Positions 36,998-37,111 of a stretch of 64,000 bases of DNA are shown here, in pieces. Origin of the DNA: Thermogemmatispora aurantia (GTDB taxonomy: Bacteria > Chloroflexota > Ktedonobacteria > Ktedonobacterales > Ktedonobacteraceae); contig NZ_BKZV01000007.1 in NCBI RefSeq assembly GCF_008974285.1, positions 1-64,000 on the forward strand, written 5' to 3'. The notes beneath the pieces were generated by a model, which saw only the letters and a program-made list of their open reading frames with translations, made no database searches and was not told where the DNA came from. The position numbers were made by a program, and so were the translations under genes. Each line of letters starts with the position of its first letter. Position 1 is the first letter of the stretch.

Positions 36998-37111
36998 CTG
37001 GAACGCGCGAGTCGAGAGAGCGGCTCTCCCACTGAGCTACAGCCTGAGAAGGCTGACGGGATTCGAACCCGCGACCGGTGTGTATGCTCGCCCGGTCAGA
37101 GCGCGTTCCAG
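36998..37111 (-). ncRNA. Y-RNA-like unit B, permuted tRNA mimic
   Basis: An 11-bp perfect terminal helix (CTGGAACGCGC 36998-37008 with 37101-37111). In RNA order: UCUGACCGG, shared GAGCAUACACAC, then T-arm GCGGG-UUCGAAU-CCCGU (37072-37056), acceptor strand CAGCC, a 6-base loop, acceptor strand GGCUG, UA (tRNA positions 8-9), D-arm GCUC-AGUGGGA-GAGC (37037-37023), and the shared 3' motif CUCUCUCGACUC. The T-arm precedes the D-arm and the acceptor is closed by a loop, so it is a circularly permuted tRNA elbow, not a tRNA gene. Bacterial YrlA-type Y RNAs are known to mimic tRNA. Confidence 0.9.

Follow-up and report, generated by a model that had tools for sequence, protein, structure and literature searches.

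Bacterial Y RNAs and the Thermogemmatispora locus

In 2014, Chen and colleagues reportedly described Y RNAs with tRNA-like features in the neighborhood of Ro60 in over 250 species of bacteria and phages. YrlA of Salmonella (Rfam family RF02553; structure 6CU1, as cited in PMC8394870) carries arms that resemble the T-, D- and acceptor arms of a tRNA, and DusA and TruB have been reported to modify it (review PMC8394870). A PNPase tether and DusA/TruB modification have been described in other species (PMC8394870, PMC8058203). The statement in the preliminary description of the present locus that YrlA-type RNAs are known tRNA mimics is already published (PMC8394870). In a second described system, the Y RNA and the Rsr protein of Deinococcus radiodurans form RYPER with PNPase.

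The window analyzed here, a stretch of 64,000 nucleotides from Thermogemmatispora aurantia, contains four tandem Y RNA units (A–D) on the minus strand, upstream of a gene for a divergent Ro60-like protein, which is the next gene downstream of the array and lies on the same strand (Table 1). Unit B resembles YrlA of RF02553 in its Y stem, in its permuted T-arm, acceptor and D-arm, and in the adjoining Ro60 gene. It differs in its score (42 bits, short of the RF02553 gathering cut-off of 69), in the sequence of its Y stem and in having no adjoining RtcB genes, while the locus as a whole differs in a partner protein that is not detected by TROVE and in its array of four units. With the Deinococcus system, the locus shares a Ro60-fold gene beside Y RNAs and a PNPase gene in the genome, whereas the neighbor protein shows about 16% identity to Deinococcus Rsr (2nvo) over the structural alignment and a link with PNPase would be drawn by analogy. 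Since tRNA-like T-, D- and acceptor arms are already known from bacterial Y RNAs, the elbow of unit B is not in itself new. The combination seen here, in which a TROVE-negative Ro60 branch comes with large Y arrays, anticodon arms and both topologies, may tentatively be regarded as new; a literature search, with the primary Y RNA papers outside its reach, yielded nothing on Y-RNA anticodon arms or on this clade.

Table 1. Coordinates of the Y RNA array, unit B elements and adjoining genes in the window.
Feature	Position	Strand	Basis or remark
ThiF-like (E1-like) protein, conserved downstream	32939..33628	-	PF00899, E 1.2e-25
366-aa protein, conserved, fold unrecognized	33625..34725	-	operon order same in relatives
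Divergent Ro60-like protein, 493 aa, helical repeats and vWA (DKSGSM)	35015..36496	-	Foldseek, structural alignment
Terminator-like hairpin and T-rich tail, after array	36661..36674	-	consensus scan only
Y RNA unit A	36702..36839	-	core finder, Y-stem signature, fold
Unit A permuted core, intact T-arm, 6-bp acceptor	36726-36779	-	
Y RNA unit B	36998..37111	-	sequence; RF02553 match; inverted repeat; Y-stem signature
Unit B outer Y stem, 11 bp, CUGGAACGCGC/GCGCGUUCCAG	37111-37101 with 37008-36998	-	inverted repeat
Unit B inner Y helix GGGCGAGC/GCUCUCUC, 7/8 pairs, one C-U mismatch	37093-37086 with 37021-37014	-	
Unit B T-arm GCGGG-UUCGAAU-CCCGU	37056..37072	-	sequence, covariation
Unit B acceptor-like stem CAGCCU/AGGCUG, loop UCUC	37040..37055 (37055-37050 with 37045-37040)	-	
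Unit B UA (U8-A9-like)	37039-37038	-	sequence, covariation
Unit B D-arm GCUC-AGUGGGA-GAGC	37037-37023	-	sequence, covariation; alternative MFE hairpin competes
Y RNA unit C, Y stem and simple inner hairpin, without tRNA-like core	37176..37277	-	Y-stem signature, fold
Y RNA unit D, Y stem and inner hairpins, without tRNA-like core	37321..37431	-	sequence, fold

Unit D was missed by the first Y-stem pattern and was placed by eye and by its fold. The scan with a terminator consensus found two candidates where 0.7 were expected, which is suggestive only, and a promoter scan at the locus found nothing. Elsewhere in the window, a fluoride riboswitch was found above its cut-off (40 bits; 56326-56431, minus strand; region 55038-56431), followed downstream by an apparent cation/proton antiporter that is split over the overlapping minus-strand frames 55871-56227 and 55038-55877.

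A permuted tRNA elbow in unit B

The core of unit B is a permuted tRNA elbow, in which T-arm, acceptor stem, UA and D-arm follow each other in this order within the Y stem. All elements proposed in the preliminary description were located in the minus-strand sequence, including a T-arm and a D-arm that are both complete and stand in reversed order relative to a tRNA. The proposed sealing of the acceptor by a loop was also found, but the dimensions given for it (5 bp and a 6-nt loop) required correction to 6 bp and the 4-nt loop UCUC. Replacement of the anticodon arm by the Y stem was borne out by the 11-bp outer stem and the inner helix that surround the core; the Y stem occupies the anticodon-arm position, and unit B contains neither an anticodon arm nor CCA. 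A variable-loop-like GGUC is retained before the T-arm. Two characteristics by which bacterial Y RNAs are recognized, a long stem made by both RNA ends and a location beside a Ro60 orthologue, were both observed for unit B, and the linkage to the Ro60-like gene is conserved in relatives.

Among the Rfam models, YrlA was by far the best for unit B, with an end-to-end alignment over positions 1-114 (E 1e-7) on the minus strand. The tRNA model RF00005 gave no match in 36500-37500 among hits with E up to 10, and the covariance models thus did not place unit B as an ordinary tRNA; the consensus of YrlA shares its order of T-arm, acceptor and D-arm. None of the relatives in the same taxonomic order attained the RF02553 gathering score, and well-known control genomes also gave RF02553 matches, all under the cut-off. 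Because its score lies under the Rfam cut-off and its partner protein fails TROVE, unit B was not assigned to RF02553. Its sequence and the comparison with relatives make it very probable that unit B is a YrlA-type bacterial Y RNA.

Weak RF02553 matches elsewhere in the T. aurantia genome mostly overlapped tRNA genes. In this and related genomes (e.g., at L005, L030, L039, and L049), such weak matches often coincided with tandem tRNA junctions, where the T-arm of one gene precedes the D-arm of its neighbor. The frequency with which weak matches are exactly such junctions would favor an interpretation of unit B as a junction of this kind, or as an ordinary tRNA or tRNA pseudogene. However, ARAGORN called no tRNA over the window, the acceptor strands of unit B pair mutually at 6/6 positions, which is unneeded between neighboring tRNAs, and the core is surrounded by a Y stem, with the Ro60-like gene coming next. 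An ordinary tRNA or tRNA junction at this position was refuted by the silence of ARAGORN, the inverted repeat and the acceptor pairing test described below, and this interpretation as a whole is extremely improbable.

Recent descent of unit B from one host tRNA was rejected, as no single parent was found among the 33 host tRNAs compared. Its T-arm was closest to tRNA-Gly(GCC) and its D-arm to tRNA-Val(CAC) of the host.

The predicted fold of unit B was better than those of 200/200 dinucleotide shuffles (z -5.6). Its single-sequence minimum free energy (MFE) was -61.3 kcal/mol, as compared with -48.9 kcal/mol for the comparative structure and -55.8 kcal/mol when only T-arm, acceptor and D-arm were forced. 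In the MFE structure the D-arm is melted, and GGGAGAGC pairs instead with the Y-stem strand GCUCUCUC as a hairpin.

Conservation within the genus bears on whether unit B is a decaying copy, with unit A as the working tRNA-mimic Y RNA of Thermogemmatispora. Mispairs in the T, D or inner Y helices of unit B occurred in three of the four congeners (G039, HOG59, and T. carboxidivorans), and the T-loop was altered in T. carboxidivorans, while the T-arm and acceptor of unit A were unaltered in G039 and T. carboxidivorans. These observations agree with decay of unit B. Against it, all T, acceptor and D pairs of unit B are complete in the window and in HOG45, its acceptor is paired at 6/6 positions in 5/5 Thermogemmatispora genomes, and the rival unit A has itself a degenerate D-arm. 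Decay of unit B is therefore regarded as unlikely, although unit A, which carries a UUCG hairpin in the anticodon-arm position, may possibly be the weightier tRNA mimic of the two in this genus. In the T. carboxidivorans orthologue of unit B (L068:4370-4500), the T-loop reads GUCGAAU and the T-stem is broken, as if decaying.

Permuted and native-order units in related loci

A scan of species genomes identified 167 stretches encoding relatives of the Ro60-like protein, of which 80 were kept. These 80 loci belong to Ktedonobacteria and other Chloroflexota, many Cyanobacteria, Acidobacteriota and a few other groups. With the window included, 68 loci contained 162 distinct Y-stem units, in arrays of up to eight. 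Outside the part used as search pattern, the outer stem was paired in 91.5% of positions within units and in 53% after swapping, and outer stems covaried from locus to locus. In none of the 80 loci did the Y-stem pattern occur on the reverse strand, and all Y units were located upstream of the Ro60-like gene, on its strand. This uniform placement is what would be expected if the tRNA-like hairpins were not free Y RNAs but acted in cis in the leader of the Ro60-like mRNA. The long stem that closes every unit separately, the arrays of up to eight units and the terminator-like hairpin after the array in the window make a role as leader elements very unlikely.

A core finder for the order T-arm, acceptor, D-arm gave 98 matches in the locus set, some of which were a single site counted again in overlapping loci, while four overlapped genuine tRNA genes. 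In 865 kb of mononucleotide-shuffled sequence the finder gave no match. Circularity was avoided in the acceptor test by selecting units on T-arm and D-arm sequence alone before pairing was measured: the 7-nt acceptor strands were paired at 99.7% within units, as compared with 62% when strands were exchanged from one locus to another (at most 68% over 200 swaps). In an alignment of 41 permuted cores, for which the T-stem but not the acceptor had been used in unit selection, the three stems were paired in 95.9% of cells. Consistent with the arrangement in the preliminary description, for which a comparative alignment had been proposed as a check, the covariation score of these cores was 0.627, whereas shuffles scored 0.204 and slid structures no more than 0.144. 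Two-sided changes were found in 7/7 acceptor pairs and 4/5 T pairs; the D-stem was weaker, with 85% pairing and two-sided changes in one of its four pairs.

Two kinds of tRNA-like module were found in the relatives, one permuted, as in unit B, and one in native order. Native-order units, which were present in 19 loci, consist of D-arm, anticodon arm and T-arm, with the Y stem in the position of the acceptor end. ARAGORN tRNA calls overlapped 19/20 native-order units and, in the same count, none of the permuted units, and some native-order units exceeded the Rfam cut-off for tRNA. These calls and scores imply that some Y RNAs may be listed as tRNA genes in the annotation of cyanobacterial genomes. 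Examples of native-order units in cyanobacterial loci are L098:3645-3772, L082:4571-4698, and L073:3915-4042.

Of 107 T-arm units of both kinds, 27 combined a canonical anticodon arm with a variable loop of 5 nt (0.16 expected from shuffling). Among 50 permuted units selected without use of the anticodon arm, nine had a full one (5-bp stem, 7-nt loop, U33; 0.24 expected), indicating that complete permuted tRNAs occur in a minority of relatives. A further approach, in which units were rearranged in silico into tRNA order and 68/78 were called by ARAGORN, was rejected as evidence for anticodon arms. In the control, shuffling of the anticodon region gave 65–70 calls as compared with 63 for the real units, and swapping of halves between loci gave 15–22; since shuffled regions were called equally often, the calls do not count in favor of such arms.

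Permuted tRNA genes of algae and archaea have, like unit B, a permuted arm order, and the tRNA-like domain of tmRNA is, again like unit B, a partial tRNA mimic with T- and D-arms. Unit B differs from both in its sealed acceptor, its Y stem at the breakpoint, and the absence of an anticodon and CCA. The similar arm order and the full anticodon arms of some relatives could suggest a permuted tRNA gene whose product matures into a functional tRNA, like those of some algae and archaea. Given that unit B has neither anticodon arm nor CCA, that its acceptor loop measures just 4 nt and that in many loci such modules are linked with Y stems and a gene for a Ro60-like protein, the chance that it is such a gene is close to negligible.

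The Ro60-like protein and the proposed role of the elbow

The Ro60-like protein is 96% identical to its counterpart in T. carboxidivorans PM5. Pfam TROVE gave no match in this protein, vWA_Ro60 matched below threshold (E 0.009), and a phmmer search against PDB sequences recovered no Ro60. In a Foldseek search with its AlphaFold model (pLDDT 82.6), the best 12 hits were all Ro60/Rsr. Structural alignment of the model with Ro60/Rsr gave Z-scores of 17–21 over 410–440 residues, as compared with about 15 over just 155–177 residues for unrelated vWA proteins. As judged from the model, the neighbor protein is predicted to have a full-length Ro60 fold, consisting of a helical-repeat ring and a vWA domain. 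Because the TROVE profile gave no match across the whole genome, it is the only Ro60 detected in T. aurantia.

For the 366-aa protein encoded in the same operon, no domain was recognized and a structure search gave no fold match at E 0.001 or better. Within the flanks covered, relatives of this protein were found in 41/80 loci and relatives of the ThiF-like protein in 35/80. Both follow the Ro60-like gene in many phyla, and a second vWA protein is present in some relatives. The genome also encodes PNPase, TruB, Dus, and RtcB, and no gene for any of the four adjoins the Y RNA locus.

Studies of Deinococcus Rsr and Salmonella YrlA suggest by analogy that the Y stem of unit B would be bound by the Ro60 ring. 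The elbow would fold like the corner of a tRNA, would probably be modified by TruB and Dus enzymes, and could serve as a handle on which an effector, most likely PNPase, docks. The Y RNA would thereby serve as a tether between Ro60 and a nuclease and would also gate the ring. Taken as a whole, a YrlA-type Y RNA with its elbow as effector handle on Ro60 is probably the best explanation of the locus. The RF02553 score under the cut-off, the melted D-arm of the MFE structure, the weaker D-stem and the mispairs in three of four congeners count against this explanation; the PNPase, TruB and Dus genes of the genome count for it. For tethering to a nuclease, most likely PNPase, the chances appear roughly even; the location of the PNPase gene outside the Ro60-like operon argues against it. 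A wider and rather doubtful proposal is that, in a Ro60 branch of Chloroflexota, Cyanobacteria, and Acidobacteriota, the Y arrays are near-complete tRNA mimics in two opposite topologies, some with anticodon arms, which, in concert with the 366-aa and ThiF-like proteins, might serve RNA-damage or tRNA quality control as decoys or sensors; unit B would then be a reduced form.

The locus connects Y RNAs that mimic tRNA with a Ro60 lineage overlooked by standard domain searches. Because TROVE misses this lineage, its use in annotation may understate how common Ro60–Y RNA particles are in Cyanobacteria and Chloroflexota. The native-order units also carry a warning that gene finders call some cyanobacterial Y RNAs tRNAs. 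With units that do or do not contain a D-arm or an anticodon arm and that are permuted or in native order, the arrays offer natural variants for testing which tRNA features an effector reads.
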